Under the pieces are notes generated by a model that was not told where the DNA came from, made no database searches, and saw only the letters and a list, made by a program, of their open reading frames with translations. Shown piece after piece: positions 2,292-54,984 of a stretch of DNA of 56,051 bases (positions are counted from its first letter, which is position 1; every line of letters starts with the position of its first letter). Origin of the DNA: a virus; IMG/VR virus record IMGVR_UViG_3300031673_016563, positions 1 to 56,051 of that record. One strand, 5' to 3'. The position numbers and the translations under genes were made by a program.

Positions 2292-3821
2292 ATGAAAATT
2301 ATATTTGTTGCTTCAGATTTCAGCGGCCTTGGCAAAGGTACCTTTGCAGCCTCTCTGGGGAGAGTGCTATTATCTTTTGGAGTAAGCACTAAAATCATGA
2401 AAAATGATCTATATTTCAATTATGATGCGGGCACAATAAATCCGGGGGAGCATGGGGAGGTTTATGTTCTCAAGGATGGTACGGAAGTTGATCAAGATTT
2501 TGGAATTTACGAGAGGTTCTTAAATCTTGAACATACCAGCACAGATTATATGACCTCAGGTAGATTATTTCATGAGATTTATTTGAGGGAGAGAGCTGGA
2601 GAATATTTAGGTCAAACGGTATCTATTGAGCATATCATTCAGGAATTAAAGCAAAAAATAATTAATTTTGCGGAAACTTGCCAGGTGGGTATTGTTGAGT
2701 TAGGGGCTACCGTGGGGGATATTAAAGGAGTCTATATAATAGAGGCTTGTAGACAGTTGATTAATGAATTAGGCCCTGAGAATACGTCATTTGTTCTTCT
2801 ATCTTATATACCCTATCTGAATAATGTGGGTGAATTGAAGACCATGGGTTGTCAGAGAAGTGTAGGGGTACTGCGGAGTAAAGGTATTAAGCCCGATATC
2901 ATTATCGCTAGGAGTTCAGAGTGCGATGAATTACCGGATTACCAAATGGATAAAATCCAACTTTATTGTGAGATACCTAAGGAAGCTGTATATTGTTTTC
3001 CGGATCTTCCTGATTATTACCAGATTCCGAAAAGGATTCGATCAACCTCATTACACACTTATATTTCTAATAAAATGGGTATTCCTCTGAAGGAGGATAA
3101 ATTAGATGATTGGTATGAAAATAATTTTAGTCCAGCGTTACCTTTTAGAGTGGCTTTATTAGGAAAATATGCTCATCAAGATGCTTATATCTCAATTGTG
3201 AATCAACTCAAAATGTTTGGCGTTACCTCAGTTGATTTTATTTCAGGGCCGGATGAATCATTAAAGGATTATGATGGGAGTATAGTTCCAGGGGGTTGGG
3301 GATATCGAGGTATTGAGGATATTATATCAGGTATAACAATTTGTAGAGAGAATCATATTCCATGTTTAGGTATCTGTTTAGGTCTTCAATTGATGATAAT
3401 TGAATATGCTAGGAACGTTCTTGGTATGAAAAATGCAAATAGTTTAGAATTTGATGAGTTCACGGAGTGGCCGGTGGTTACCTTACAGGAGGATCAAAAG
3501 AAAGAATCAGGTTTAGGGGGCACAGCGAGGTTAGGGGATTGGGTTACGAATTTAGATCTTAAGAGTAGGTTAAGAAAAATATACGGTCATTGGAGTATCA
3601 CACAACGTCATAGGCATAGATACGAGATTTCACCACATTATAGTTATGGAGATTTCAAAATTGTGGGGGCGGACTCTAAAACAAAATTGATAGAGGCCAT
3701 GGAATTGGATACTCATTTATTTTATATAGGAGTGCAGTACCATCCTGAGTTCTTTATCTCAAGAAATCCGATATTCGAAGGTTTTGTAGAAGCGATGAAA
3801 GTTAATTCAATCAAAAATTAA
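2292..3821 (+). CDS. pyrG: CTP synthase
   Basis: Converts UTP to CTP using ATP and glutamine. The 509-residue protein is complete: synthetase domain with the P-loop at residues 12-17 (GLGKGT), the HGEVYVLKDGTEVDQDFG segment with its metal-binding Asp, and VELGATVGDI, then a class I glutamine amidotransferase domain with GICLG (Cys362 nucleophile) and QYHPEF (His484, Glu486). Bacterial enzymes are about 535-545 residues; this one is shortened in loops rather than truncated. The usual GGTVGDIES reads GATVGDIKG. All catalytic residues I can identify are kept, so it is probably active. A phage copy would relieve CTP limitation during replication. Confidence 0.95.
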   Translation: MKIIFVASDFSGLGKGTFAASLGRVLLSFGVSTKIMKNDLYFNYDAGTINPGEHGEVYVLKDGTEVDQDFGIYERFLNLEHTSTDYMTSGRLFHEIYLRERAGEYLGQTVSIEHIIQELKQKIINFAETCQVGIVELGATVGDIKGVYIIEACRQLINELGPENTSFVLLSYIPYLNNVGELKTMGCQRSVGVLRSKGIKPDIIIARSSECDELPDYQMDKIQLYCEIPKEAVYCFPDLPDYYQIPKRIRSTSLHTYISNKMGIPLKEDKLDDWYENNFSPALPFRVALLGKYAHQDAYISIVNQLKMFGVTSVDFISGPDESLKDYDGSIVPGGWGYRGIEDIISGITICRENHIPCLGICLGLQLMIIEYARNVLGMKNANSLEFDEFTEWPVVTLQEDQKKESGLGGTARLGDWVTNLDLKSRLRKIYGHWSITQRHRHRYEISPHYSYGDFKIVGADSKTKLIEAMELDTHLFYIGVQYHPEFFISRNPIFEGFVEAMKVNSIKN

Positions 3822-8119: not shown

Positions 8120-8752
8120 ATGAATCAATTAAAGTCAATAGAAGAAAAAGCAAGTTATTTGTATGAGGCTAATAGAGCGTATAGGGAGGGTAATCCTATA
8201 ATATCGGATGATGTGTATGATTACCTTGAGCGAGAGGTAAGAGAATTAGATCCTGATAATGAAGTTCTAAGTAAGATTCGAGATCATGATTTTGGGGTAA
8301 CGAAGAAATTAACTATCGCTATGGGTAGCCAGGATAAAGCTCGTAATTTAGAGGAGATGGGTAGATTTTATAATAGGATTGATAGTAATGATCTTATATG
8401 TGCTTCTGAGAAACTGGATGGAATGAGTTTTGAGTTAACCTATAAGCATGGAAATTTTGTTAGTGCTATTTCCAGGGGGGATGGAGAATATGGTGTCGAT
8501 TATACCTCCATCATGATCGGCGCAAAGGATATCCCCCCTAAGATATCTTATGGGGGAACACTTATTGTTCGAGGGGAGGTTTTAATACTTAAAAGTGATT
8601 TACCTTCATTAAATAAGGAGCTTGAAGCTGAGGGTAGAGATACCTATATTAATACTAGAAATGGTGTATCGGGGATTGTTAAGACTTTAAAGAATGTAAA
8701 ATATTCTAAATATATTACATTCAGAGCATTTAACGTAATAAAAATAGATTAG
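8120..8752 (+). CDS. ligA: NAD-dependent DNA ligase, fragment 1 of 3 (NMN site and adenylation core)
   Basis: This 210-residue chain is the N-terminal third of LigA, which joins DNA nicks using NAD+. It has a short domain Ia (ISDDVYDYLEREVRELDP), the adenylation motif EKLDG with the nucleophile Lys98, SRGDGEYG (119-125) and RGEV (151-154), then TRNGVSG in place of the usual P-R-N-A-A-A-G. It stops after FRAFNVI, in the middle of the nucleotidyltransferase domain. The missing motifs IV and V begin the gene at 10515. There is no intein sequence at the break. The fragments carry complementary motifs with no overlap, so the enzyme is probably assembled from separate chains. GGAG precedes the ATG. 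Confidence 0.88.
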   Translation: MNQLKSIEEKASYLYEANRAYREGNPIISDDVYDYLEREVRELDPDNEVLSKIRDHDFGVTKKLTIAMGSQDKARNLEEMGRFYNRIDSNDLICASEKLDGMSFELTYKHGNFVSAISRGDGEYGVDYTSIMIGAKDIPPKISYGGTLIVRGEVLILKSDLPSLNKELEAEGRDTYINTRNGVSGIVKTLKNVKYSKYITFRAFNVIKID

Positions 8753-8762
8753 GAGTGAAATA

Positions 8763-9140
8763 TTGTACAAAAGTAGTCTTCGCAAGTATAGAAGAAAAAA
8801 AGAGGATGATTTAGAACCCTTGAAAAAAGTTCCGGATTATACCAATCAGAAAAAGAGAGGATCTTTTTCTGCGGATAAACATACGGCTTTGAATGTAAAT
8901 CGAATTTATTTTGTGGATGAAAATTATGATCGATTGATAGTATCCTCAGAAGAGGTGCGAACGGGGGGAGATCTTACAAGATTCACAGGTCAATTACCCT
9001 TTATTCCTGAGCGGGGGGATATTTTGTCAAATGATGATTTCTCTCGAAGATTTGAAGTTATCCGAAGACATATGGTTCCTCAACTCTCAACAAATATTCC
9101 TCCGAAAATTTATATAGTGATGAAAGAAATTAAAGTGTAA
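8763..9140 (+). CDS. Hypothetical protein (125 aa, TTG start)
   Basis: Starts at TTG 8763 after AGGAGTGA. The N-terminus is strongly basic (SLRKYRRKKEDD); the remainder looks like a beta-rich small domain (RIYFVDENYDRLIVSS, then FIPERGDIL). There is no Cys cluster and no membrane segment. It is the first of several genes placed between ligase fragments 1 and 2; nothing links it to ligase function except position. I do not recognise it. Confidence 0.5.
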   Translation: MYKSSLRKYRRKKEDDLEPLKKVPDYTNQKKRGSFSADKHTALNVNRIYFVDENYDRLIVSSEEVRTGGDLTRFTGQLPFIPERGDILSNDDFSRRFEVIRRHMVPQLSTNIPPKIYIVMKEIKV

Positions 9141-9173
9141 AATTTTCTAGAGTTAAATCGAATATATAGTATA
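9135..9173 (+). promoter_or_regulatory. Phage promoter-like element, copy 1
   Basis: GTGTAAAATTTT at 9135-9146 and TCGAATATATAGTATA starting at 9158, 23 bases from the first G to the T of TCGAA. The same spacing occurs in six other copies in the window. It overlaps the stop of the preceding gene and lies 30 bases before the gene at 9203. Confidence 0.6.
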
Positions 9174-9202
9174 AGTCAAATAAATTTAAAAGGAGATTCA
9201 AA

Positions 9203-9463
9203 ATGAAAATCGGGGATAGGGTCAAAATAAGAGCTTCAAGGAATACGATATCTGAATTATGGGATGTTGTGGGCACCATAGTAAAAGAAAGATTCATTGA
9301 TAAATCAATTACAAGAGAATATTATGATAGAACCCTTGAGCAATGCCCAGATGAGATGTTGTATACTATGTCCTTTGATTTTCCTTTAGAGTGTGAGAGT
9401 ATCAATTTGAATGGATACAAGGGTCTTTTGATTTACGAGAGTGATGTGGAAGCCTTAAGTTAA
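9203..9463 (+). CDS. Small SH3/KOW-like hypothetical protein
   Basis: An 86-residue protein beginning MKIGDRVKIRAS, followed by DVVGTIVKERF and ending LIYESDVEAL: the pattern of small SH3-like beta barrels (KIGDRV, then G-x-I-V-K). It starts after AAAAGGAG and is the first gene downstream of promoter-like copy 1. The role may be nucleic-acid or protein binding; the fold suggestion is by pattern only. Confidence 0.5.
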   Translation: MKIGDRVKIRASRNTISELWDVVGTIVKERFIDKSITREYYDRTLEQCPDEMLYTMSFDFPLECESINLNGYKGLLIYESDVEALS

Positions 9464-9564
9464 TGGTCGCCGGGGGGACTGAGGGATATAATTCATTATT
9501 TGTAACAGAGATAAATATTATAACCTTCCTCTCCTTGGATTAAAAAGTAAGGGGGATTAAACAA

Positions 9565-9804
9565 ATGGAAGAAAATACAGTACTAAAACAGGCTAAAGCC
9601 AATCTGGAGCAATTTTTGCAAGAGAACCCTGATATGATTAAATATCAAAGAGAAATAGATTTAGCTTTAATGGGGATTGATGACGCTGCTTTGAGAGTAA
9701 GTGTTCTTATGAGTAAGATTTCAAATAATATGTCTGAAATTAGAGGTTTGTCTGTGGAGTTGGCTAATCAGTTATCCAAGGGGTTACCTAAAGAGTTAAA
9801 ATAG
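9565..9804 (+). CDS. Small helical hypothetical protein
   Basis: A 79-residue, probably all-helical protein with heptad-like hydrophobic spacing (AALRVSVLMSKISNNMSEIRGLSVELANQL), suggesting a coiled coil. The ribosome site is GGGGG at about 9551. The 101 bases upstream contain no other supportable gene. Unknown function; located among the inserts between ligase fragments. Confidence 0.5.
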   Translation: MEENTVLKQAKANLEQFLQENPDMIKYQREIDLALMGIDDAALRVSVLMSKISNNMSEIRGLSVELANQLSKGLPKELK

Positions 9805-9856
9805 GTCTCCAATAGTTGCGGATTCTAAGAAATAGATTAAATTAAGGAGCAATAAA

Positions 9857-10513
9857 ATGTTAAATAAAGAAAGAATAAAAGCACAATTAATATCAGATGA
9901 TAAAAAACAAATAAACGTTCACAATGGTATCACAGGATTGCATCATAACGTTTACGGTGATTTCAAAAACGTTAGAGGCAATGTATCAAGATTATATGGT
10001 TCCGTATCACCAAAATTATCCGGAGATATATCAGGATTAATGGGAACCATATCACCAGGATTAGGGGGTGATATATCAAGATTATTCGGAGATATATCAA
10101 GATTATATGGTTCCGTATCACCAAAATTATCCGGAGATATATCAGGATTAATGGGAACCATATCACCAGGATTAGGGGGTGATGTATCAAGATTATTCGG
10201 GGATATATCAGGATTATTCGGTTCCGTATCACCAAAATTATCCGGAGATATATCAGGATTAACGGGAACCATATCACCAGGATTAACGGGAACCATATCA
10301 CCAAAATTATGGGGTGATGTATCAAGATTATTCGGTTCCATATCATCAAGATTAACGGGAACCATATCATCAGATTTATATGGAGATATATCAAGATTAA
10401 CGGGAACCATATCACCAAAATTATCCGGAGATGTATTGGATTTATCCGGGGATATAACAGGTATTGAGGGTGATGTAAAAGAAATAATAAATATTTTAAA
10501 AGGAGAGCAATAG
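9857..10513 (+). CDS. Solenoid-like repeat protein, family member A
   Basis: 218 residues. A leader (MLNKERIKAQL, then QINVHNGITGL and YGDFKNVRG) is followed by about 25 short repeats of the form S-G-D-I-S-G-L-x-G with occasional longer turns (G-T-I-S-P-G-L), and a closing cap SGDITGIEG plus an amphipathic helix DVKEIINILKGE. Alternating Ile/Val and Leu at regular 3-4 spacing with Gly at turns suggests a narrow beta-solenoid. Leader and cap are shared with four other genes. The last 63 bp of the gene are identical to those of member B (10445-10507 and 11527-11589). Function unknown. It ends one base before the GTG start of ligase fragment 2. Confidence 0.7.
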   Translation: MLNKERIKAQLISDDKKQINVHNGITGLHHNVYGDFKNVRGNVSRLYGSVSPKLSGDISGLMGTISPGLGGDISRLFGDISRLYGSVSPKLSGDISGLMGTISPGLGGDVSRLFGDISGLFGSVSPKLSGDISGLTGTISPGLTGTISPKLWGDVSRLFGSISSRLTGTISSDLYGDISRLTGTISPKLSGDVLDLSGDITGIEGDVKEIINILKGEQ

Positions 10514-10514
10514 G

Positions 10515-11318
10515 GTGGATCAAATAAAAAGTCTTGAGGAAAGGTTTAAATACCTAGAGAGTTTGGGCTTCAAGACTCCTGAACATGGGTTAATAAAGGT
10601 TGAGAGTATTGAAGACACTTATCAATACTTTATTGATAAGAGGGGTTCCCTTGATTATGGGATAGATGGTATTGTTTTCTCTATAGATGATATGGAAAAA
10701 ATGGAATCCTTGGGAGTGTTGAATGAGAAACAAAAACCAAAAGGTCAGATAGCGTTAAAATTTCCAACTTCAGTGCACTATACCAAAATTCTAGATGTTG
10801 AGCTCAGCTTTAAAGGTACACAGGATATCAGTCTTGTGGCGCATATTGAGCCTGTTGAAATAGATGATACTACGATTAGGAAGGCGAGTCTAAAAAGCTA
10901 TAGGTGGGCTATTGATAATAAAGTATCAATAGGTTCGGTGGTGGGGGTGATAAAAGGGGGGGATATTATTCCTTGTATTACTGAGGTTATAAATACAAAT
11001 ATAAATTCTTTGTATGTTCCTTTTCCCATCCTTTTAAAATGCCCACATTGTGGAGGAGAAATTAAAACGGATGATACCCAATTATATTGCGAAAATGATA
11101 TGTGCAATGCTAAGGAGGCAGCTAGGATCTCTAAATTTTTGAAAATTATCAAGGTAAAAGGTCTAGCCTACAAAACTTTATTGAAATATGTAAATGTGGG
11201 TGTAGGCTTATGTCATTTTTTAGCTAAGAATTGGGATGAGATTGAGAGAATGATTAAAGTGGATTCTAGAATATCTTTAGTGATATGGGATAGGATTAGA
11301 AAATCTTTAGAGGAGTAA
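10515..11318 (+). CDS. ligA: NAD-dependent DNA ligase, fragment 2 of 3 (motifs IV-V, OB fold, zinc finger)
   Basis: This 267-residue chain continues LigA exactly where fragment 1 stops. It opens with the helix that follows the core strand (LEERFKYLESLGF), then motif IV YGIDGIVF (48-55), motif V ALKFP with Lys82, an OB-fold region ending GSVVGVIKGGDIIP, and a zinc finger with Cys176, 179, 192 and 197. The tail is the first helix-hairpin-helix part. The start is GTG at 10515, after GGAGAG and just behind repeat protein A. The whole set of ligase residues is preserved across the fragments. How the split nucleotidyltransferase domain folds in two chains is unknown. Confidence 0.87.
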   Translation: MDQIKSLEERFKYLESLGFKTPEHGLIKVESIEDTYQYFIDKRGSLDYGIDGIVFSIDDMEKMESLGVLNEKQKPKGQIALKFPTSVHYTKILDVELSFKGTQDISLVAHIEPVEIDDTTIRKASLKSYRWAIDNKVSIGSVVGVIKGGDIIPCITEVINTNINSLYVPFPILLKCPHCGGEIKTDDTQLYCENDMCNAKEAARISKFLKIIKVKGLAYKTLLKYVNVGVGLCHFLAKNWDEIERMIKVDSRISLVIWDRIRKSLEE

Positions 11319-11322
11319 TAAA

Positions 11323-11592
11323 ATGTTAAATAAAGAAAAGATAAAAGAGCAGTTAATATTGAATGTTAAACAACAAGTAAATGTTCATGATAATATCATA
11401 GGATTACATTCCAATATTTATGGTGATTTCAAGAATGTTAAGGGTAACATAACAGGATTATATGGAAACATATCAGGATTATCCGGAAACATGTTACCCT
11501 GTTTGTATGGAGACATATCCGATATATCCGGGGATATAACAGGTATTGAGGGTGATGTAAAAGAAATAATAAATATTTTAAAAGGAGAGTAA
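11323..11592 (+). CDS. Solenoid-like repeat protein, family member B (short)
   Basis: An 89-residue version of the family: leader MLNKEKIKEQL, VHDNIIGL, YGDFKNVKG, only about five repeats (GLYGNISGLSGN), then the same closing cap and helix as member A. The final 63 bp are identical to member A, so a recent duplication or gene conversion is likely. Placed four bases after ligase fragment 2, with AGGAG as ribosome site. Confidence 0.65.
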   Translation: MLNKEKIKEQLILNVKQQVNVHDNIIGLHSNIYGDFKNVKGNITGLYGNISGLSGNMLPCLYGDISDISGDITGIEGDVKEIINILKGE

Positions 11593-11596
11593 TAAA

Positions 11597-11779
11597 ATGT
11601 TAAATAAAGAAAGAATAAAAGCACAATTAGATGGGGGTAAACCAATAGATGTTCCTAAGCAGGTGGGTATCCATATAATATCAGAATGTCAGGGGGGTAT
11701 ATTAGTTGATATACCTTTGGAGGGTCAGGGTTGTGTATTAGATAATGATGCTGATATAGTTATTTTGGAGGAACAATAA
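11597..11779 (+). CDS. Family leader fused to an unrelated body (member C)
   Basis: This 60-residue protein starts with the same leader as members A and B (MLNKERIKAQL), and about 40 bases from AATAAAATG through the leader are identical to member A. Then it changes completely to a short strand-rich segment (IDVPKQVGIHII, GGILVDIPLEGQG) with no S-G-D-I-S repeats and no closing cap. It looks like a leader swap. Alternatively the leader is a translation-start cassette copied in front of another gene. Function unknown. Confidence 0.55.
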   Translation: MLNKERIKAQLDGGKPIDVPKQVGIHIISECQGGILVDIPLEGQGCVLDNDADIVILEEQ

Positions 11780-11781
11780 AA

Positions 11782-11994
11782 ATGCCACTATATGGGTATG
11801 AATGTACATTTTGTGATTTCAAGTTTGAACTGCGGAAGAATATGTTGAAATCGGATGATACAGAGTACTGCCCACAATGCGGGTCGGAATGTAATAAGTT
11901 GATATCCGGAGGTAGCGGATTCATTTTAGAAGGTAGCGGATGGGCTAAAGATGGATATTCAGATTCTCACAGTAAAGGGGGGAGCCACGAATGA
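11782..11994 (+). CDS. FmdB-family zinc-ribbon protein
   Basis: A 70-residue protein beginning MPLYGYECTFCDFKFE, with a second Cys pair (CPQCG) and the diagnostic ending F-I-L-E-G-S-G-W-A-K-D-G-Y. This is the FmdB-type zinc ribbon found in many bacteria and phages; its function is poorly defined (a regulatory role has been suggested). Four Cys (two CxxC pairs) are intact. Its stop overlaps the ATG of ligase fragment 3 by four bases, so the two are probably translated together. Confidence 0.8.
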   Translation: MPLYGYECTFCDFKFELRKNMLKSDDTEYCPQCGSECNKLISGGSGFILEGSGWAKDGYSDSHSKGGSHE

Positions 11995-12515
11995 ATCTAG
12001 CTAAATTTTTAGATAGTATATCCATTACTGCTGCGGGGGAACTTACCTTTCAGCAATTCATTGATGAGGGGTTTGATACTTTGTATAAGATAAATGAAAT
12101 GTCTATCGATCAAATGGCGAGTTCGGGCAAATCTAAGAATAGAATATTGGGAGAGAAGACTGCTGAGAAAATATATAATAGTCTACATTCGGCAAGGGTA
12201 AGATTATTATTAGAGTTCTCGGATTTATGGATAAACAAATTGGACGATTCTCCTCCACAAGAAGAGGAGAATAATGAGCTCTTAATGAATGTGCGGGGTA
12301 AGAAGTTACTTTTCACTGGGGAGGGGCCTTTTTCTAGAGCAACATTAACGGCGATCTTGAAAAGGAATAATGCAATTGTTCAATCCTCTCTTACAAAAGA
12401 AACTGATATTTTGATTTTGAGTAATTTGGATAGTACTTCAAGTAAGGCTAAGAAGGCTAGAAAATATGGTACAAAAATGATTACTTACGAGGATGTTTTT
12501 GGAGGGCAGGTGTAA
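11991..12515 (+). CDS. ligA: DNA ligase, fragment 3 of 3 (helix-hairpin-helix and BRCT)
   Basis: 174 residues. The first 65 look like the continuation of the LigA helix-hairpin-helix region (FLDSISITAAGELTFQQFIDEG). The C-terminal 75 form a BRCT domain: NVRGKKLLFTGEG, then LTAILKRNNAIVQSSLTKETDILI and a closing MITYEDVF, the standard order. BRCT ends LigA in bacteria, so the three chains together reconstitute the domain order of a full ligase. Start ATG at 11991 overlaps the FmdB-like gene by four bases. Alone this chain cannot be catalytic; it would bind DNA and the other fragments. Confidence 0.8.
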   Translation: MNLAKFLDSISITAAGELTFQQFIDEGFDTLYKINEMSIDQMASSGKSKNRILGEKTAEKIYNSLHSARVRLLLEFSDLWINKLDDSPPQEEENNELLMNVRGKKLLFTGEGPFSRATLTAILKRNNAIVQSSLTKETDILILSNLDSTSSKAKKARKYGTKMITYEDVFGGQV

Positions 12516-12548
12516 AATTTTTAAGAGCCAGATCAAATATATAGTATA
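12510..12548 (+). promoter_or_regulatory. Phage promoter-like element, copy 2
   Basis: GTGTAAAATTTTT from 12510 and ATCAAATATATAGTATA ending at 12548. The usual TCGAA reads TCAAA here; the spacing of 23 is unchanged. It drives into repeat family member D. Confidence 0.55.
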
Positions 12549-12579
12549 AACCAATTAAAAACTTAATATGAGCAATAAA

Positions 12580-13236
12580 ATGACAAATAAAGAAAAGATA
12601 AAAGCACAGTTAGAATTGGATGTTAAACAACAAATAAACGTTCACGATGGCATCACAGGATTACACCTCTTTATATATGGGAATTTCAAAAACGTTAGAG
12701 GTGATGTATTTAAATTATCCGGAGACATAACAGGATTATCCGGAACCGTATCATCAGGATTGTTCGGGGATATAACAGAATTATCCGGCCACATATCAGA
12801 ATTATCCGGTAACATATCAGGATTATCCGGTAACATATCAGGATTATCCGGTAACATATCAGGATTATCCGGAATCATATCAGGATTATCCGGTAACATA
12901 ACAGGACTATCCGGAACCGTATCATCAGGATTGTTCGGAGATATAACAGGATTATTCGGTAACATATCAGAATTATGGGGTAACATATCAGGATTGTTCG
13001 GAGATATAACAGGATTATCCGGAGACGTATCAGGATTATCCGGTAACATAACAGGATTATTCGGAACTGTATCATCAGGATTATCAGGAAACATATCAGA
13101 ATTATCCGGAGACATAACAGGATTATCCGGAACCGTATCATCAGGATTGTTCGGGGATGTTACCTACTTATCCGGGGATATAACAGGCATTGAGGGTAAT
13201 ATAGAGGATATAATAGATATTTTAAGAGAGGAGTAA
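12580..13236 (+). CDS. Solenoid-like repeat protein, family member D
   Basis: 218 residues from the ATG at 12580. That start matches the leader of the other members (MTNKEKIKAQL); an ATG at 12568 in frame would add four residues, but the matching position in the relatives is the ribosome site GGAG, here TGAG, so the upstream ATG could be a mutated Shine-Dalgarno. After QINVHDGITGL and YGNFKNVRG come about 26 repeats, the clearest in the window: exact heptapeptide units GLSGNIS and GLSGNIT, encoded by 21-bp direct repeats. It ends with the family cap SGDITGIEG and helix NIEDIIDILREE. From this start it has the same length as member A. Confidence 0.65.
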   Translation: MTNKEKIKAQLELDVKQQINVHDGITGLHLFIYGNFKNVRGDVFKLSGDITGLSGTVSSGLFGDITELSGHISELSGNISGLSGNISGLSGNISGLSGIISGLSGNITGLSGTVSSGLFGDITGLFGNISELWGNISGLFGDITGLSGDVSGLSGNITGLFGTVSSGLSGNISELSGDITGLSGTVSSGLFGDVTYLSGDITGIEGNIEDIIDILREE

Positions 13237-15183: not shown

Positions 15184-16284
15184 ATGACAACATATAAAGA
15201 ATCAGGTGTGAATATTGAGGCGGGGGATGATTTTTCAAAGTATATTTACAAAGCTATACAATCCACTTGGGTAGATTCGGGGTGGAGAAAAATGATCACA
15301 CCTCTTGATGATTTTTCGGGATTGAGATATGTGGATATTTCAAATCTGGATAATGTTGTAATGGGTATGAATTTTGATGGGATTGGCACGAAGGTTAATA
15401 TTGCGGAAGCTTTGGGAGATTTTTCAACCATAGGTTATGATCTTGTTGCCATGGTGTGTGACGATGCTATAATTCGGGGGGCAGAGCCAGTGCTAATGGG
15501 GTCAATCATAGATCTGAATCATATCCCTTTGAATTATCATTCTCAGTTAAAGGATTTGATCAAAGGTTATGTGGAAGCTGCAAAAGTAGCAAATGTCCAA
15601 ATCATAAATGGGGAAGTAGCGGAACTTGGAAATAGAGTCCAAGGGTCTGGACCTTTAAATTTGAATTGGGGTGCTGGGGTGGTATGGTTTGCTAATAAAG
15701 ATCGAATAATATCGGGGAAAAATATTGAGGTTGACGATAGTGTAGTTTTATTTAAAGAAGATGGTTTTCGATCGAATGGTATATCCTTGGTAAGAAGAAT
15801 ATTTGTAGTAGAGTATGGAGCTTTTGTCACGGATAGAGAAGGATATCTTGAAAAAATGTTGACTCCTTCTCGAATATATACTCCAGCTATAATAGAAATG
15901 ACCGGGGGTGTTTACGGAGAGATTAAGGTTGATATTCAAGGTATGGCGAATATTACAGGGGGTGGATTACCTGGAAAATTAGGAAGGATGATGAAACCTT
16001 CAGGATTAGGTATTGATTTGAATGATCCCTTTGAGCCTCCTGATATTATGTTAGAATTTCAGGAGAAAGGGGATGTTAAAAGTAAAGAAGCCTACCGAAC
16101 TTGGAATATGGGTAATGGGTTTGCGGTGGTTACAAAAGATCCTGATAAGGTTATTGAGCTTGCCAAGAAGCATGGTATCGAGGCCAAAATCGGAGGAAAT
16201 GTCATTGATAGCAAAATAATAAAGATAAAAGATAAGGGGGCGTTTAGTAAGAATAAAACGTTACTCTTTCCTTTGGAGGAATAG
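15184..16284 (+). CDS. purM: Phosphoribosylformylglycinamidine cyclo-ligase (AIR synthetase)
   Basis: Closes the imidazole ring in step 5 of purine synthesis (FGAM + ATP to AIR). The 366-residue protein has the family order: Y-K-x-S-G-V-N-I-E-A-G-D at the start, FDGIGTK, then IGYDLVAMVCDDAI and GAEPVLMGSIID, TGGGLPGKLGR, and WNMGNGFAVV near the end. The usual second-part Asn-Asp (N-D) reads D-D (CDDAI) and the usual FNMGIG reads WNMGNG, so it is divergent, but the length and glycine motifs are intact. It abuts the previous stop codon and is followed by two small genes, then purB and purD. Confidence 0.92.
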   Translation: MTTYKESGVNIEAGDDFSKYIYKAIQSTWVDSGWRKMITPLDDFSGLRYVDISNLDNVVMGMNFDGIGTKVNIAEALGDFSTIGYDLVAMVCDDAIIRGAEPVLMGSIIDLNHIPLNYHSQLKDLIKGYVEAAKVANVQIINGEVAELGNRVQGSGPLNLNWGAGVVWFANKDRIISGKNIEVDDSVVLFKEDGFRSNGISLVRRIFVVEYGAFVTDREGYLEKMLTPSRIYTPAIIEMTGGVYGEIKVDIQGMANITGGGLPGKLGRMMKPSGLGIDLNDPFEPPDIMLEFQEKGDVKSKEAYRTWNMGNGFAVVTKDPDKVIELAKKHGIEAKIGGNVIDSKIIKIKDKGAFSKNKTLLFPLEE

Positions 16285-16877: not shown

Positions 16878-18173
16878 ATGATTAATAGGTATACACATAA
16901 AGAAATGGGGGATATCTGGACTGAGGAGAACATGTATAAGACCTGGTTAGAGGTTGAATTGGCGGTATGTAAAGCTTGGGTTGAATTGGGGGAGCTACCA
17001 CAGAAAACATACAATGAAATTTATGATAAAGCTAATTTTGATGCGAATAGAATTGAAGAAATTGAAAAAGACGTGAAACATGACGTTATTGCATTTCTCA
17101 CTAATGTATCTGAGTATGTAGGCCCTGAGAACTCAAGATTTATACATAAAGGGCTGACATCCTCAGATATTTTAGATACTTCTTTAGCTATGAGGATGAA
17201 TCAATCTATAAGTATCATAGTGAGTAAGATCCGAGCTTTAATGGAGGCGGTCAAAAAGAGAGCATATCAATATAAGGATACTATAATTATGGGTCGATCT
17301 CACGGTATGCACGCGGAGCCCACAACTTTTGGATTAAAACTTGCAAGTTGGTATGCCGAGATTGAAAGAAGTTTACAAAGAATATATTCCGTTTGGGAGA
17401 GTATATGTTGTGGTAAGATATCCGGTGCAGTGGGTACATATGCACATATACCAATGGAATTAGAAGTGTTTACATTAGATATTCTAGGTTTAGAGTGTCC
17501 CAAAATATCTAATCAGATCTTACAAAGAGATCGTCATGCTGAATGTATCACCGCATTGGCTATTGTGGGGGCTTCTCTTGAAAAATTTGCAACGGAAATT
17601 AGACATTTGGCACGAACAGAGATTCATGAAGTGGAGGAACCTTTTACAAAAAACCAAAAAGGCTCCTCGGCTATGCCACAAAAGAGGAACCCCATAAGAT
17701 CCGAGAATGTATGTGGATGTGCGAGAGTTCTTCGGGGCTATGCCTTAACCGCGATGGAGAATGTAGCTTTATAGCATGAGAGGGATATCAGCCATTCATC
17801 GGCTGAGAGGATAATAATTCCGGACGCTTTCATTTTGTTGGATCATATGCTTTCCAAGATGATCAATATTGTGGGGAATATGGTGGTATATGAGGATAGG
17901 ATGAAAAAGAATATGGAGTTATCTTCCTCAACCATATTAGCACAAAAAGTTCTATTATTTTTAGTGAATAAGGGGATGGCAAGAGATGTGGCATATAAAA
18001 TAATTCAGAGTACGGCTATGGAGGCTATGCAATCAAATAAAAATTTCATAACTCTACTAAAGGAGAATAAATTAATAAATTCTTGGATAACTGAGGAGGA
18101 TCTGAAACAATTTGATTATTCCAGTTATCTTATTAACGTGGATGAGATATTTAATCGTGTTTTTGGGGAATAA
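16878..18173 (+). pseudogene. purB: Adenylosuccinate lyase interrupted by an in-frame amber codon
   Basis: PurB performs two fumarate eliminations in purine synthesis (SAICAR to AICAR; adenylosuccinate to AMP). The reading frame matches a full-length enzyme (432 codons including the stop; bacterial PurB is about 430) from MINRYTHKEM to VDEIFNRVFGE, including QRDRH, the catalytic-loop segment GSSAMPQKRNP (262-272, with Gln where bacteria usually have His) and AERIIIPDAF. Codon 299, in E-N-V-A-L-[stop]-H-E-R-D-I-S-H-S-S, is TAG (17772-17774); relatives have Trp (TGG) there. The frame continues without other damage, so this is a single G-to-A change. TAG ends many other genes here, so it is not recoded genome-wide. 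It could be a true nonsense mutation, suppressed readthrough, or a sequencing error. Confidence 0.85.
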
Positions 18174-19251: not shown

Positions 19252-20526
19252 ATGAATATAATGGTGATAGGATCAGGGGCTAGAGAACATGCTATGGTTT
19301 GGGCTTTGAAGAAAGATTCTGAAGTAAGTAAAATAATTTGTGTTCCAGGGAATGCAGGTATATCTAAGGTTGCAAAATGTATAAAAGGAGATATTAATAA
19401 TATTTCTGAGTTGTATAATATAGCAAAATATGAGGAAATAGATTTAACTATAATTGGTCCGGAATTACCTTTATCGTTGGGAGTGGTGAACTTCTTTAAT
19501 GAAAGAGGGATGCAAATATTTGGGCCTTGCAAAGAAGTTGCTCAACTAGAGTCCAGCAAATGTTTTTCAAAATCTTTCATGCAGAGGCATAACATACCCA
19601 CTTCGGATTTTAAGCAATTTGAAGATCCGATAGAAGCAAAGAAATATATTAAATTTATTAAAAACACATACGTTGTGAAAGCGGACGGATTAGCCTCTGG
19701 CAAAGGTGTTTTTATATGCCATAATGAATCCGAAGGTATTGATGCTATAAATAAAATAATGATGTATAAAAATTTTGGAGGTGATGCGGGTAAAAAAATC
19801 GTTATAGAAGATTTTTTAAAGGGAAAAGAAGTATCTTTAATGGTAGTTACGGATGGGGTTAATATTAAATTATTGGAGACTTCCGTGGACTATAAAGCAT
19901 TGAGAGTAAATAATATTACGTTGAATACGGGTGGAATGGGTGCGTATAGCCCCTCTGAAATAATGGGTGGGAAGTTATCCGATAATATACTTAGAGATAT
20001 AGTAATACCAACATTAGACAATATATATTTGGAGACGGGGAATAAATATAAAGGTGTATTATATTTGGGGTTAATGATTGATGAGGAAGGTATGCCTTTT
20101 GTTTTAGAATATAATGTTAGATTAGGAGATCCTGAGACGCAAGCATTATTAGTAAGGCTTGAAAGTAGTTTTTTAAAATTATGTTTAGCTACAATAAATG
20201 AAAATTTAAATGAGGTGGATATATTGTGGAAAAATACTCCATCGGTTTGTATAGTTGCTGCATCTAAGGGGTATCCTAATTGCTATGACATAAATAAAGA
20301 GATATTTGGATTGGAGACATTTAATGAATCTTTTAAATCTGTTGAGATATTTCATGGAGGTACGATTTTTGGAGAAGAGGGTAAAATATTAACCGGAGGT
20401 GGAAGAGTACTTTCAATTGTCTCAATAGGAGATTCTATAAATTCTGCCAAACAATTAGCATATGAAGCTATAAGAAGCATATATTTCGATGGTATGTTTT
20501 ATATTGAGAATATAGGAACAATTTAA
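19252..20526 (+). CDS. purD: Phosphoribosylamine-glycine ligase (GAR synthetase)
   Basis: Catalyses step 2 of purine synthesis (phosphoribosylamine + glycine + ATP to GAR). The 424-residue protein is full length and close to bacterial PurD: GSGAREHAM at the N-terminus, VPGNAGI, IIGPELPL, VVKADGLASGKGV in the ATP-grasp domain, NTGGMGAYSP and the metal-binding EYNVRLGDPETQ, with a C-terminal AIRSIYFDGMFY end. It is better conserved than PurM and PurB here and its codons are notably A/T-ending, which could mean later acquisition. It starts 18 bases after the previous stop, with GGAGG in the leader. Confidence 0.95.
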   Translation: MNIMVIGSGAREHAMVWALKKDSEVSKIICVPGNAGISKVAKCIKGDINNISELYNIAKYEEIDLTIIGPELPLSLGVVNFFNERGMQIFGPCKEVAQLESSKCFSKSFMQRHNIPTSDFKQFEDPIEAKKYIKFIKNTYVVKADGLASGKGVFICHNESEGIDAINKIMMYKNFGGDAGKKIVIEDFLKGKEVSLMVVTDGVNIKLLETSVDYKALRVNNITLNTGGMGAYSPSEIMGGKLSDNILRDIVIPTLDNIYLETGNKYKGVLYLGLMIDEEGMPFVLEYNVRLGDPETQALLVRLESSFLKLCLATINENLNEVDILWKNTPSVCIVAASKGYPNCYDINKEIFGLETFNESFKSVEIFHGGTIFGEEGKILTGGGRVLSIVSIGDSINSAKQLAYEAIRSIYFDGMFYIENIGTI

Positions 20527-24336: not shown

Positions 24337-24696
24337 ATGACAAATAGAGAAAAAATATTTACGCAATTGAGATTCAGTTTAAGATTACAAAAAAATGTCC
24401 ACGATAGTATTATAGGATTACACCCTAATATTTACGGTGATTTCCAAGACATTAGGGGGACCATATCATCAGAATTATCGGGAGATATAACAGAATTATC
24501 AGGAGATATAACAGGTATTAAGGGGATTATATGTCCAGAATTATCTGGAACCATATCATCGGAATTATCAGGAGATATAACAGAATTATATGGTGATGTA
24601 TCAGGATTATATGGAAACATATCAGGATTATCAGGAGATATAACAGGTATTGAGGGTAACATAGAAGACATAATAAAAATTTTAAAGGAGGATTAA
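24337..24696 (+). CDS. Solenoid-like repeat protein, family member E
   Basis: A 119-residue, more divergent member of the family: leader MTNREKIFTQL, VHDSIIGL, YGDFQDIRG, about ten repeats (S-G-D-I-T-E-L, S-G-T-I-S-S-E-L) and the cap SGDITGIEG with helix NIEDIIKILKED. It lies 11 kb from the others, before the polymerase fragments. One copy of the cap-like SGDITGIKG also occurs inside the repeat, so the cap can act as a repeat unit. Ribosome site GAGGAG. Confidence 0.6.
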   Translation: MTNREKIFTQLRFSLRLQKNVHDSIIGLHPNIYGDFQDIRGTISSELSGDITELSGDITGIKGIICPELSGTISSELSGDITELYGDVSGLYGNISGLSGDITGIEGNIEDIIKILKED

Positions 24697-25128: not shown

Positions 25129-25995
25129 ATGATAAATTTGAGTAGTATAAATAAAAGTTTGATAACCTCAAAGAATGATTTTAATTCATGGGCCGAGGAA
25201 ATCTTGGAATTAAGTAAAGTTCAAGGAGGATCTACTCTAGGGTTTGATCTTGAGACTAATGGTAAGATTTTTCCGGATACTGAGTTGGTGGGATTTTCCT
25301 TATATAATAGAACTCTATCTAAAGCTTGTTATGTGCCCATACATCATATAGAGACAACTATATCATATAATGTTTTTTTAAGTGATATAAAATCCAGCCT
25401 CCAATTATTATTTGATACTTCCTTAATTACGGTGCATAATGGGGTATATGATTTCTTGTTAATGAATAAATTAGGGTACAAGTTCAATAAGGTATTCTGT
25501 ACCTATACATTAGCGAATATGCTCCAGTTCATTAATCTGGGTTTGAAGGAGCTTTCTTTGGAGTTTGGGTTGATCAAGTATAATGAGGTTATGACATATC
25601 TAAAATTAATGGGTCTATTGGGATTTCCGGAAGATCATTATGATTTCTCGGATATTGATATCACTTCAAGTAAAGAAGCATTTGATTACGCGGTCAATGA
25701 TTCAATATTTGTGGTTCATTTGGCGGAGATTTTGTTCAACAAATATTATGAGTTGATTGGCAATGGAAATTTAGTACGATTCAATCTAGACTCCCAGTTC
25801 AATACCATGCTGCTATTAGCTGAAACATCTACTTCAAAAGGATATTATGTAGATAAGAATTATCTGGATGTTTTCATAAAGCAATTTGGCACGGAACTTG
25901 AATCAAAAGAGAAAGAGCTCATGGACAAAGTTAGAACTTTTATGGGGTGGGCAGTTTCGGAGGATAACATGAAATCAATCTCAGCGGGGGTATGA
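25129..25995 (+). CDS. polA: Family A DNA polymerase, fragment 1 of 3 (3'-5' exonuclease)
   Basis: 288 residues carrying a complete DnaQ-type proofreading domain: Exo I FDLE (Asp40, Glu42), Exo II H-N-G-V-Y-D (Asp108) and Exo III Y-A-V-N-D (Tyr187, Asp191). After it comes the start of the polymerase thumb (NLDSQFNTMLLLAETSTSKGYYVD, matching the Pol I M-x-x-x-G segment). The chain stops just before the conserved F-N-x-x-S region, which begins the next gene. Proofreading residues are intact, so this chain may be an active exonuclease. Its TGA overlaps the next ATG by four bases. Confidence 0.85.
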   Translation: MINLSSINKSLITSKNDFNSWAEEILELSKVQGGSTLGFDLETNGKIFPDTELVGFSLYNRTLSKACYVPIHHIETTISYNVFLSDIKSSLQLLFDTSLITVHNGVYDFLLMNKLGYKFNKVFCTYTLANMLQFINLGLKELSLEFGLIKYNEVMTYLKLMGLLGFPEDHYDFSDIDITSSKEAFDYAVNDSIFVVHLAEILFNKYYELIGNGNLVRFNLDSQFNTMLLLAETSTSKGYYVDKNYLDVFIKQFGTELESKEKELMDKVRTFMGWAVSEDNMKSISAGV

Positions 25996-26525
25996 TTATG
26001 GCCAAGAAAACTTTAGCTGATTTGAAGGATGCATTTAAGGAGGAGCCTCTAAAGAATGTTAAGATAGATGAGGTTAAGAAGAAAGTACCTAAATGGAACA
26101 TGGATTCAAGGAATTTAATGATCAACTTATTCTTCAATGTTCTGAAGGAGAAACATAGAACGGCTGCGGATAAGTTGCCGAGTATAAATGCTGATGCTTT
26201 GGATAAAATGAGAAATCCAATAGCTCAAGAGGTCATTAAATTTCGTTCGGATACAAACTTATTAAATAGCTTTAAGAATGTGGGTTCCTATGTCCATTCT
26301 AATAGAAAATATGGGTATTCGGATGAATGGGATAGAGCTAATATAAAATATAATATGGTGGGGTTTGACAATGTTGAGCGAATTTATCCAGTGGCTAAAG
26401 AGAGTATTCCTCTAAGTGCTAATAAGAAGGTTAGGAAGGCTTTTGTAATTCCAAGAAGCCATTTGATTTTTGAGGATCATCTAAAGGATGATATACGAAA
26501 AATTTTAGACAATTTGAAGGAGTAG
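25992..26525 (+). CDS. polA: Family A DNA polymerase, fragment 2 of 3 (thumb and fingers start)
   Basis: 177 residues filling the gap between the exonuclease and palm fragments: the thumb-type WNMDSRNLMINLFFNVL (Pol I: F-N-x-x-S-x-x-Q-L), LPSINADALDKM, then SNRKYGYSDEWDRANIKYNM, which sits where Pol I has its template contacts and T-G-R-L. No catalytic residue is in this piece. A charged N-terminal extension of about 30 residues has no counterpart in normal Pol I. It overlaps fragment 1 by four bases. Identity is inferred from order, size and weak motif matches, so less sure than its neighbours. Confidence 0.7.
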   Translation: MIMAKKTLADLKDAFKEEPLKNVKIDEVKKKVPKWNMDSRNLMINLFFNVLKEKHRTAADKLPSINADALDKMRNPIAQEVIKFRSDTNLLNSFKNVGSYVHSNRKYGYSDEWDRANIKYNMVGFDNVERIYPVAKESIPLSANKKVRKAFVIPRSHLIFEDHLKDDIRKILDNLKE

Positions 26526-26724: not shown

Positions 26725-27549
26725 ATGGGGGAGGATAGAAAAACATATCCTACTAAGATTTGGCTTTCTTTTGATTGGAAGCAAGCTGAAATGTATTTCT
26801 TATGTTTATTTAGTAAGGATAGTGTATTGAAACAGGCCTTATATTCTCAGGATTTTCATAGCTATGTTGCAAGTTTGCTGGATAACATTTCTATTGAGGA
26901 TGTAAATCCAACTAATCGGGAGATAGCTAAGGCGATAAGTTTTAATTTGATATATTCGGGATTTAATGCCAAGATCACTATGGCAAATATCCTGAAGAAG
27001 AGACCTGATTTGAATGAGGATCAGGTCTCAGATATGCTAGATAAATATCAGAGCACCTTCTTCTGTTTGTTTAATTGGGTTAAGAAATCGGTTCTGGATT
27101 GGAGGGATAATGCGGGGTATATGACATATTTCATGGGGGCTAAAAAATTTATACCTATCCCAAAATATGTCACTGCGGATTGTGATCCTGATAAATTATT
27201 ATACACTAAGCAAGGCCGTTTGTGTATAAATACTTTTGGTCAAAATTCTGTGGGGCTTCTATTAAAGTCGGTATGCTCAAAAATTTTTAGTAATGCTTTA
27301 TTAAGGGAAAAGACAACTCAATATATTCCTTTGTTTGACTCCCTTAGTTTTTTGGCTGATACTGAAAACTTAGATTATATTCTGAGAGCTGTGGATGAGT
27401 ATGCTACTCCAATTATAACACATGATGGTTTTGAGATTAGTATGAAGGTGGATTGGTCCATATCGGATAAATCCTGGGGGGATCTAAAGAAATTTGAGTA
27501 TGTCAACGAGTGTAAAAATAAATTATATTATCAATGGGATATCGTATGA
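26725..27549 (+). CDS. polA: Family A DNA polymerase, fragment 3 of 3 (palm and fingers)
   Basis: 274 residues with the three polymerase motifs: A (LSFDWKQAEM, Asp17), B (REIAKAISFNLIYSG, Arg65, Lys69, Phe73, Tyr77) and C (PLFDSLSF, Asp205). Both metal-binding Asp are kept. Motif C normally reads H-D-E; here it is F-D-S, a divergent form. This chain has the catalytic centre but lacks thumb and proofreading, which are in the two preceding genes. Phe73 corresponds to the sugar-discriminating Phe of Pol I. Ribosome site AGGAGG at 26711-26716. There is no intein-like end on any fragment. Confidence 0.87.
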   Translation: MGEDRKTYPTKIWLSFDWKQAEMYFLCLFSKDSVLKQALYSQDFHSYVASLLDNISIEDVNPTNREIAKAISFNLIYSGFNAKITMANILKKRPDLNEDQVSDMLDKYQSTFFCLFNWVKKSVLDWRDNAGYMTYFMGAKKFIPIPKYVTADCDPDKLLYTKQGRLCINTFGQNSVGLLLKSVCSKIFSNALLREKTTQYIPLFDSLSFLADTENLDYILRAVDEYATPIITHDGFEISMKVDWSISDKSWGDLKKFEYVNECKNKLYYQWDIV

Positions 27550-46054: not shown

Positions 46055-48349
46055 GTGGGTCAGAAAAGATCTCTTGAGGAGGCTAAAAAATTATTCCTAG
46101 ATTCAGGGGTTACACCATTATTTAGTGAGTATACTTCTGCTAACAAGCCTTTAGGATATAGATGCTCCTGTGGGCGAGAGGATAGTATGTCAATAAGTTC
46201 TTTATTTAGATCATTGAAGAACTTTCCTACACTCAAATGCAAGAGATGTAGATTAAATGATCTAGAGAAATTTAGAGCTCAAGATAATGAAAGTAGAATA
46301 AGGAATCAATTCCCGGAAGTAGAAATACTAGATATAATTCCTGGAAAATACGGAGTACATCCTATTAAGATAATATATATCTGCCCAATATGTGGGGATA
46401 AATCAAGCATATACTATAAAAAACATTTGTCTAGTCTTATATGTAAGAAATGCTCCAGAAAATCTATAATTGAGAAACAGAGATTAGATCAATTAGAGGT
46501 GAAAAGTTTATTTGAAGTACATAATGCTATTTTGTATTCTGAGTATAAACACACTAATCAAAAATTGATATTTAGATGTGAATGTGGAAATATAGGAGGT
46601 ATAATGCTTACAAATTTAAAGTATAAAGGGGTAAAGCCTCTTTGTAAGCAATGTCAATTGAAATATTCTTATCTTAGGGGGGAGAATAGTCCTAGTTGGA
46701 ATCCAAATCTTACTGAGGAGAGTAGATCAAATTGGGGAAGATCCTCTGAGGATAAGCAATGGTATAATCAAATCTTTGAGCAGTTCAATTATACTTGTTT
46801 TGTATCAGGACGGAGGAATATCCCCTTGTCAGCGCATCATCTTAATCCTTACTCAAGATATCCTGAATTAAGATTAGACTTGGATAATGGTATTTGTATT
46901 AGTAGAGAGCTACATCTGAAATTTCATAGGGAGTATTCATATATTAATATGACGATAGAAGATTTTTGTGAGTTTTTTCGGAAGGAGACAGGAGAAGATT
47001 TCAAATTTTATTATGATACGAACAATAAATTATGGAGAGAGAAAAAGATGAGTTCATTACAAGAAAAAGGTAAAAGGGTTAGACATTCCACGGAATCTAT
47101 AAAAAGAGATTTTTTGAAATATGGGGCAGAGCCATTATTTGAGGAATATAAGAATATTAGAGAAGAATTGGGATATAGATGCTTCTGTGGTAATATATCT
47201 TTTACCACTTGCGAACAATTTTACATGCATATACGAAAATATCCTAGATATAAGTTGATGTGTCAAAGTTGCACTTGTAAAGAAGCTTTGAACAATAAGA
47301 GAGATAATTTCTTTGAGCATACAATAAAGCCATATTTCCTAGAAAGAGGGGTGAGGCTATTATCCGAGACATATGAGAATAATCATACCCCTTTAAGATT
47401 TATATGTTCATGTGGAAAGGAAAGTTTAGTAACTTGGATATCCTTAAAAAATAACAATTGCTTAAAGTGTAAGGATTGCCAAGCCTCGGATAAATCTAAG
47501 AGAGTGGAGCAAGATAGTATAAGACATATTGCCTCAAAGGTAGAGGATAATGCTATAACTCAATTTAAGGATTTTTGCGAGGAGTATAAAAATATTTCCT
47601 CACTAGAGAAGGGTACGATAATAGAATTTATTGAGGGGACACCTCACCCCAGTTACTTGCTTAATAAGAAGAAGGAGTATAGTGATCAGGGTAGAAATTA
47701 TATTCCATTTTTTGCGCCTGAAATTCGAATGAAACACGATATTGTTTTGAGTATGTCTCGATATAAGTGGAGGGATATACAAAATAAAATCTTTGCAAGG
47801 AAATTGAGAATTGTTGAGGTGAAGGATTTTCAAAAGGTGAGTAGATTTCTAGATGAAAATCATATACAAGGCTCTACTGTATCCAGCATCAATCTTGCAT
47901 TAATGAATGGGGATGATATGGTATCCCTTATGACGTTCAATAAGGAATCTAAGAAAGGGGATAAAGAATTTTCATTGCAGCGGTTCTGTAGCAAGATAAA
48001 TACCATTGTTGTGGGGGGAGCTTCAAAATTATTTAAATATTTTGTTAAAGAATATGATCCTCTCAAGATAACAACCTATGGGGATGTTAGATTCTCGGAA
48101 TTAGTACCTCAGAATTCGATATATTTCCGGTTAGGGTTTAAGTATTCTCATACATCAAAACCTAATTATTGGTATACTAGTGATGGTCTGAATATGATTT
48201 TCAGAAGGAAATTTCAAAGGAAATATTTACCCAAGATATTTAAAAAGGAGTATGATTCAACTTTATCCGAGAGAGATATCATGTTAGCTGAGGGATATCA
48301 AAGATTATACGATTGTGGAAACCACGTATTCATCTATGAGAAGAATTAA
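46055..48349 (+). CDS. Multi-module HNH endonuclease with zinc-ribbon repeats
   Basis: 764 residues, GTG start after AAGGGGGTGA. Order: two or three zinc-ribbon modules (L-F-S-E-Y, R-C-S-C-G, C-K-R-C), then an HNH domain (about 245-305: C-F-V-S-G-R, SAHHLNPYSRYPELRLDLDNGI, LHLKFHREY), two more zinc-ribbon modules and a 220-residue C-terminal domain with N-H-I-Q-G-S, Q-R-F-C-S-K and FRLGFKYSHTSKPNYWY. That end matches the module following Vsr-type homing nucleases of phages. Likely a homing nuclease that cuts DNA at a related site. It has its own promoter and sits between the capsid gene and later structural genes. Confidence 0.75.
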   Translation: MGQKRSLEEAKKLFLDSGVTPLFSEYTSANKPLGYRCSCGREDSMSISSLFRSLKNFPTLKCKRCRLNDLEKFRAQDNESRIRNQFPEVEILDIIPGKYGVHPIKIIYICPICGDKSSIYYKKHLSSLICKKCSRKSIIEKQRLDQLEVKSLFEVHNAILYSEYKHTNQKLIFRCECGNIGGIMLTNLKYKGVKPLCKQCQLKYSYLRGENSPSWNPNLTEESRSNWGRSSEDKQWYNQIFEQFNYTCFVSGRRNIPLSAHHLNPYSRYPELRLDLDNGICISRELHLKFHREYSYINMTIEDFCEFFRKETGEDFKFYYDTNNKLWREKKMSSLQEKGKRVRHSTESIKRDFLKYGAEPLFEEYKNIREELGYRCFCGNISFTTCEQFYMHIRKYPRYKLMCQSCTCKEALNNKRDNFFEHTIKPYFLERGVRLLSETYENNHTPLRFICSCGKESLVTWISLKNNNCLKCKDCQASDKSKRVEQDSIRHIASKVEDNAITQFKDFCEEYKNISSLEKGTIIEFIEGTPHPSYLLNKKKEYSDQGRNYIPFFAPEIRMKHDIVLSMSRYKWRDIQNKIFARKLRIVEVKDFQKVSRFLDENHIQGSTVSSINLALMNGDDMVSLMTFNKESKKGDKEFSLQRFCSKINTIVVGGASKLFKYFVKEYDPLKITTYGDVRFSELVPQNSIYFRLGFKYSHTSKPNYWYTSDGLNMIFRRKFQRKYLPKIFKKEYDSTLSERDIMLAEGYQRLYDCGNHVFIYEKN

Positions 48350-53622: not shown

Positions 53623-54984
53623 ATGGGGGCTAGTAAATGGAATTCGGAAACAGTTTCGCAGTGGTTTAGGGATAAGAATAGTGAATTGCTATCTGAATAT
53701 AAAAATTTGAAGGATAAAATAAGATTCAAATGCTCTAGATGTGGGGAAAATGCTGAGTATCATAGTTTTGATGCATTAAAGGGATATAATTCAAAATGTT
53801 TGTGTAAGAATTGTAATAAAGAAAATAGAGGTAAACATAATGCTTTAGATCCTGAGAGAGTTAAAAAATGGTTTATAGATAGGGGCAGTGAGTTATTATC
53901 CGAGTATGTATCCTCTAGTAGGAGGATTATATTTAAGTGTTCAAAATGTGGAAGTATAGCTGAGCATTCAAATTTAACCAATTTCAGAATTAGGAGATCA
54001 GATTGTCTCTGTAAGAAATGCGCTAGGGAAAAACAAGATCAAGGAAATAGATTATCTCAAAAAGAAGTAGAGAAATGGTTTATAGATAGGGGCAGTGAGT
54101 TATTATCCGAGTATAAGAATAATTCTACTAAGATAATTTTTAAATGCTCAAGATGTGGGAGTATTGGAGAAAACTATAGTTTCAATAATATGAAGGGAAA
54201 AGACTCTCAATGTCTCTGCACAAAATGTGCGAGGGATAATACGGTAGCTTCAAGAAAAGTTACAAAAGATCGAGTTGAGATATGGATGAGAGAACATAAC
54301 TCAAAATTATTAAAATTTACAGGCAATAGAGATGAAATTCATTATATATGCTCGAAATGCGGTATGAATGCGATATATAGTAATTTTATTCACTTAAGGG
54401 AAAGAAATTCCGATTGTTTATGTAGGGAGTGTATAAAAAAAGGATTCACTGAAAAGAGAAGGCTTCCTGAATCCGATGTGAGACAATGGTTTTTGGATCG
54501 TAATTCAGAATTATTATCACCATATGAGGGAATAGATTCAGAAATTACTTATAAATGCTCTAATTGTGGGGTATCCGCTAAGGGTTATTCATTCTATAAC
54601 TTCAGAAGTCGAAATTCGAAATGTTTATGTGGAGTATGCAGAAAGATTTTTGTATCCGGGGAGAATAATAATTTTTGGAGTCTCACTTTAGATGATAGCA
54701 AGAGACGGAGTTTCAGAAAATATAACAACCCGTGGTATTTACCTTGGAAGAAGGCTGTATTGCGAGAACATAACTATACTTGCACTATTACGGGGGAGAA
54801 TAAAGGAGATATAGTTATCCATCATTTATATAATTGGGCCGATTTCCCGGAACAGAGAGTATTTTTAAGTAATGGGGTAGTAATTAGACGGGATCTTCAT
54901 AAGGAGTTTCACGAGATATATGGTAGGAGGAATAACACTCCGGAACAGTTTATGGAGTTTGTGGAGAGGTATTATGTCAATTAA
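53623..54984 (+). CDS. HNH endonuclease with five tandem zinc-ribbon repeats
   Basis: 453 residues. Five repeats of about 60-70 residues run from residue 1 to 345: W-F-x-D-R-x-S-E-L-L-S-E-Y, then F-K-C-S-x-C-G and C-L-C-x-x-C at the end. Each has four Cys. A C-terminal HNH domain follows (C-T-I-T-G-E, IHHLYNWADFPEQRV, LHKEFHEIYG; canonical His are retained). A repeat array linked to a nuclease could bind a long DNA site with each unit touching a few bases, but that is inference. Its stop overlaps the next gene by 11 bases. Confidence 0.78.
   Translation: MGASKWNSETVSQWFRDKNSELLSEYKNLKDKIRFKCSRCGENAEYHSFDALKGYNSKCLCKNCNKENRGKHNALDPERVKKWFIDRGSELLSEYVSSSRRIIFKCSKCGSIAEHSNLTNFRIRRSDCLCKKCAREKQDQGNRLSQKEVEKWFIDRGSELLSEYKNNSTKIIFKCSRCGSIGENYSFNNMKGKDSQCLCTKCARDNTVASRKVTKDRVEIWMREHNSKLLKFTGNRDEIHYICSKCGMNAIYSNFIHLRERNSDCLCRECIKKGFTEKRRLPESDVRQWFLDRNSELLSPYEGIDSEITYKCSNCGVSAKGYSFYNFRSRNSKCLCGVCRKIFVSGENNNFWSLTLDDSKRRSFRKYNNPWYLPWKKAVLREHNYTCTITGENKGDIVIHHLYNWADFPEQRVFLSNGVVIRRDLHKEFHEIYGRRNNTPEQFMEFVERYYVN

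Follow-up and report, generated by a model that had tools for sequence, protein, structure and literature searches.

LigA in the window, the whole 56,051-nt stretch of viral DNA that was analysed (IMG/VR record IMGVR_UViG_3300031673_016563), is present as three open reading frames (ORFs) of 210, 267 and 174 aa, which together make up one complete NAD+-dependent DNA ligase. Nothing is lost and nothing duplicated relative to a whole LigA, and the summed length is 651 aa, compared with 620–705 aa in intact phage LigAs. We think it probable that the three chains of this ligase of a large phage are translated separately and come together, non-covalently, as one active enzyme.

The three ligase pieces and the positions of the cuts

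All three pieces are encoded on the plus strand. Piece A (8120–8752, 210 aa) comprises domain Ia and the N-terminal half of the nucleotidyltransferase (NTase) domain with motifs I, III and IIIa. Piece B (10515–11318, 267 aa, GTG start) contains motifs IV and V, the OB fold, the C4 zinc finger and HhH1-2, and piece C (11991–12515, 174 aa) contains HhH3-4 and BRCT. The order of the OB fold, C4 zinc finger, HhH and BRCT across the pieces is that of LigA. The initial annotation had placed three ligase chains at 8120, 10515 and 11991, and these coordinates proved correct by Pfam and phrog_3869; it had also assigned HhH-BRCT to the gene at 11991, which holds for BRCT and HhH3-4, while HhH1-2 form the end of piece B.

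Pfam DNA_ligase_aden was matched by piece A over positions 10–146 (E 8.8e-24) and by piece B over positions 170–252 (E 9.6e-10). The OB fold of piece B (E 6.6e-14) and BRCT of piece C (E 3.7e-6) were also found with Pfam, and the C4 zinc finger of piece B gave a weak match under the cut-off, yet all four of its cysteines align. On phrog_3869 (656 positions), A covers 7–221, B 227–450 and C 491–649, each fragment matching a successive part of LigA; the pieces thus abut in LigA order, as had been claimed. A LigA profile of our own, constructed from the E. coli enzyme together with five phage LigAs and run on the 82 ORFs of the record, matched A, B and C only. A second intact ligase, named initially as counter-evidence, was absent: neither a second NAD ligase nor any ATP ligase was found in this 56-kb linear fragment of the phage genome.

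The cuts were located by alignment with 18 other ligases. Piece A stops directly past motif IIIa (ITFRAFNVIKID) and piece B opens with the next LigA helix (DQIKSLEERFKYLESLGF); on the LigA profile this first cut corresponds to 222|230 and falls, as originally proposed, inside the NTase domain. The second cut lies between HhH2 and HhH3, with B terminating in DRIRKSLEE at the end of HhH2 and C starting with NLAKFLDSISI, the LigA 'ARFLYALGI' segment that opens HhH3. Local profile alignment of the HhH part of C is ambiguous because HhH motifs repeat.

Structures of A and B, each taken singly, were predicted using AlphaFold2 with aligned ligases of viruses and bacteria as input, and the models reached a mean pLDDT of 87 and 85, respectively. 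Both were matched by Foldseek to solved LigA structures, A to adenylation domains, and the model of B compared with E. coli LigA on DNA (2OWO) at a TM of 0.73. Since the final element of A is a strand and B begins (residues 7–16) and ends (residues 255–266) with a helix, the cuts sit between secondary-structure elements.

Sequence conservation and the state of the enzyme

Piece A retains the motif I lysine, Lys98 (K-L-D-G), as well as E153 of motif III and R180, and piece B retains D51-G52 of motif IV, K82 of motif V and the zinc ligands C176, C179, C192 and C197. Taken together, A and B have complete NTase motifs I, III, IV and V, and the residues equivalent to E. coli K115, D117, G118, R136, E173, R200, D285, G286 and K314 are all kept across the pieces in the alignment. 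The earlier statements that the catalytic residues are intact, with the motif I lysine in the gene at 8120 and motifs IV-V, OB fold and zinc finger in the gene at 10515, were therefore confirmed. Of the five residues with which domain Ia serves the NMN half of NAD+ (Y22, H23, D32, Y35 and D36 in E. coli), four are kept; H23 is replaced by Arg, and most of the other phage ligases aligned have no His at this position either. Two HhH glycines, 455 and 489, are replaced in the three-piece ligase.

The main rival explanation, which we consider unlikely but more serious than the others, is that the pieces are dead ligA remnants in slow decay, the phage using the host ligase or another one encoded outside the fragment. 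The genome is incomplete in the record, and when 30 columns were selected that are each conserved in at least 90% of the 18 other ligases, the three-piece ligase kept 24, the lowest score among the 19 rows. Piece B accounts for five of the six lost columns, including four OB-fold positions (G335, P339, G350 and N360). Against decay stand 651 codons that are open over three frames with translation signals, and the intact catalytic and zinc residues. In a wider ligase set, A keeps 22 of 31 columns and B 18 of 25, which is the range of the divergent intact phage ligases L104–L106, L035 and L036. The terminal branch of the three-piece ligase (1.29, FastTree) is shorter than the branches of eight other viral ligases, and in codon usage A, B and C do not stand out from the genome of this phage. 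Conservation range, branch length and codon usage together speak against long-standing decay, although they are no proof of function.

A working core formed by A and B, with C as an accessory, or chains that cooperate with host LigA, would explain why all adenylation motifs and the OB fold are in A and B and only HhH3-4 and BRCT in C; we regard this as improbable, as C has kept a recognisable BRCT domain and HhH glycines.

Intervening genes, cassettes and translation signals

The ligase is not encoded as a single polypeptide: its ORFs are separated by gap 1 (A|B, 1762 nt) and gap 2 (B|C, 672 nt), which contain seven other ORFs in total, and the 1.8 kb and 0.7 kb of other genes reported initially were thus found and are ordinary genes. 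Gap 1 contains three plus-strand ORFs with no significant family (8763–9140, 9203–9463 and 9565–9804) and a repeat-protein cassette gene (9857–10513, plus strand), the 3' end of which (AAAGGAGAG) has Shine-Dalgarno spacing relative to the start codon of B. Gap 2, also on the plus strand, contains two cassette-start genes of families D12 and D13 (11323–11592, a repeat protein, and 11597–11779) and an FmdB-type zinc-ribbon gene (11782–11994; Pfam Zn_ribbon_8, E 1.1e-10), the stop codon of which overlaps the start codon of C. A, B and C each have their own start codon and a Shine-Dalgarno-like sequence. No homing endonuclease family was found among the seven gap ORFs. Elsewhere in the record, two large ORFs (46055–48349 and 53623–54984) have PHROG HNH/homing endonuclease matches and no such Pfam family.

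The cassette genes have near-identical DNA at their start (GAGTAATAAAATGTTAAATAAAG), and those for repeat proteins also share a near-identical 3' end (AAATATTTTAAAAGGAGAG). The family (9857–10513, 11323–11592, 11597–11779, 12568–13236 and 24337–24696) is constant at both ends and variable or repetitive in between, with GDISGLSG-type repeats, resembling those of cyanophage structural proteins. At the junction with B, the stop codon of B falls within the shared cassette start. With a stop codon in the shared start and a cassette end at Shine-Dalgarno distance, insertion of a cassette could split a gene yet leave both halves translatable.

A promoter-like 50-nt element (TGTAAAAT...ATCGAATATATA) is situated inside gap 1 (9135–9184, plus strand) and directly after C (12510–12559). 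It occurs in seven copies, at 9135, 12510, 13243, 14543, 20852, 46001 and 50497, which sit just past gene ends, and this dispersed element is probably a phage-specific promoter. The core pattern was also detected in six other viral contigs, with no protein relatives of the 56-kb record in the stretches examined. Small ORFs starting with MRKL.I were observed at 42565, 49530, 50550, 51006 and 55471, and this start is possibly a shared N-terminal signal.

It is very improbable that one chain is made after all, through RNA splicing, protein splicing or DNA excision. An 8-nt repeat at the edges of gap 1 (AATAAAAA) would permit an in-frame join; against this, an equivalent repeat was found in 32% of random window pairs, no repeat of at least 7 nt is present at the edges of gap 2, and the gap ORFs have their own starts. 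No Rfam family reached the gathering score anywhere in the 56-kb record, and around the ligase Rfam gave two sub-threshold microRNA-model matches and nothing else. No intein domain was found, in line with the earlier remark that intein-like ends are missing, and no intron either. Intron, intein and excision were rejected on these results. Reassignment of TAG was also rejected, as TAG terminates 16 of the 82 ORFs, several with a start codon right behind, and so was TAG readthrough in piece A, which would gain one Glu and then meet TGA.

The family-A DNA polymerase of the same phage also appears to be in pieces, with ORFs for the 3'-5' exonuclease (25129–25995), the start of the polymerase domain (25992–26525; weak, sub-threshold match) and the palm part (26725–27549). 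The last gap contains a zinc-ribbon-like ORF, and upstream lies a cassette gene. The gene for adenylosuccinate lyase (PurB, 16878–18173) has an in-frame TAG at 17772–17774 with both parts in the same frame, which reads as a nonsense change or a sequence error rather than an insertion. The nucleotide biosynthesis genes of the record also include those for CTP synthase (2292–3821), a PurM-like protein (15184–16284) and PurD (19252–20526).

An assembly artefact interleaving unrelated DNA is scarcely credible: this is one metagenomic record and no second assembly was found, but there are two separate breaks with the pieces ordered on one strand, GC and codon usage are uniform, the cassette family is common to gaps and flanks, and the DNA polymerase appears to be broken similarly.

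Comparison with other split ligases and proposed assembly

Split phage LigA is already known in a two-chain form. T5-like phages have annotated ligase subunits A and B, and PDB entries 9hu3 and 9i5i, titled 'PR1 phage heterodimeric DNA ligase', provide the structure on nicked DNA. These resemble the present case in that a phage LigA is made as separate chains from neighbouring genes, in their case with the heterodimer solved on nicked DNA; they differ in having two chains, parted between OB fold and zinc finger (profile 385|395 in the T5-like phage FFH1), as opposed to three chains cut at other sites. Tunturi_5, which is also large and has a portal distantly related to that of this phage, has two ligase genes (ORF116 and ORF108) with seven ordinary genes between them, but again two chains and a break between OB fold and zinc finger, here at profile 386|397.

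LigA loci were surveyed in 72 viral and 80 bacterial cases, using search peptides that bias the survey towards one clade. Truly split LigA was found in 9 of the 72 viral loci (L072, L078, L088, L092 and L094–L098), several of which are near-duplicates of one another, and all nine break at the OB fold|zinc finger junction. In eight of them the gap is occupied by an ORF of HNH or GIY-YIG type or by a remnant of one; Pfam supports this in five, and in the other three a sister locus has the same ORF or one that is nearly identical. Our phage likewise has a split LigA with DNA inserted, but its gaps are without an endonuclease. No other three-piece LigA was present among the 72 viral and 80 bacterial loci, and none of the split viral loci has a break inside the NTase domain; the breaks described here therefore differ from the known ones, and they are probably independent of them. 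Three candidates for breaks at other sites were rejected, L070 because a TGA stands in frame where Trp is likely, and L055 and L091 for apparent frameshifts. PHROG 2561 was rejected as a stand-alone C piece, since it matches only within ligase ORFs in ten phages, one match being a T5-type subunit B and one the second piece of Tunturi_5.

The same arrangement, suggested as something to look for in related phages, was not recovered. Single-protein scans with B, CTP synthase, the portal and A identified no close relatives, the scan with A returning three distant intact ligases, and neither did searches with the promoter-like element or the cassette. No LigA match was found in LR745208, the member of the phage collection with the nearest portal.

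Genes in pieces have been described for other essential phage enzymes split by insertion, namely NrdA of Aeh1, gp43A/B of phage 25 and the T4 topoisomerase (PMC2988022). These are different enzymes in two pieces, with a homing endonuclease-linked or untranslated insert. For NrdA of Aeh1 and gp43 of phage 25, activity of the split form was reported (PMC2988022), which makes activity of a ligase in pieces plausible.

A three-chain enzyme is favoured because the pieces partition LigA, have their own translation signals and keep the catalytic and zinc residues, because A and B give confident models matching solved LigA, and because there is a precedent in the heterodimeric structure, solved on nicked DNA, of a phage LigA with two chains. 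Counting against it are the lowest number of conserved columns, gaps with no endonuclease and the failure to find a close relative. In such an enzyme, the NTase active site would be restored by docking of chain A, with motifs I-IIIa, to the ~85 N-terminal residues of chain B, with motifs IV-V; chain C would join the complex via the HhH region. The cuts may have arisen through gene insertion into an ancestral single ligA, with homing endonucleases since lost, or the repeat-gene cassettes now in the gaps, as the inserting agent. A more far-reaching version is tentative and rather doubtful as a whole: a functional three-subunit ligase with its NTase domain from two polypeptides, in a lineage that has several replication enzymes as separately encoded fragments, the splits being harmless because each inserted cassette would supply a stop codon with its start and a ribosome-binding site with its end.

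Three-piece LigA with these cut sites would be a variant distinct from the known split phage ligases and seen in none of the relatives examined. If active, it would represent a natural split of a covalent nucleotidyltransferase within its catalytic domain, and studies of fragment reassembly would gain a ready-made ligase of three parts. The pieces of ligase and polymerase together make it testable whether some large phages have a general tolerance of gene fragmentation, and by which mechanism the insertions occur.
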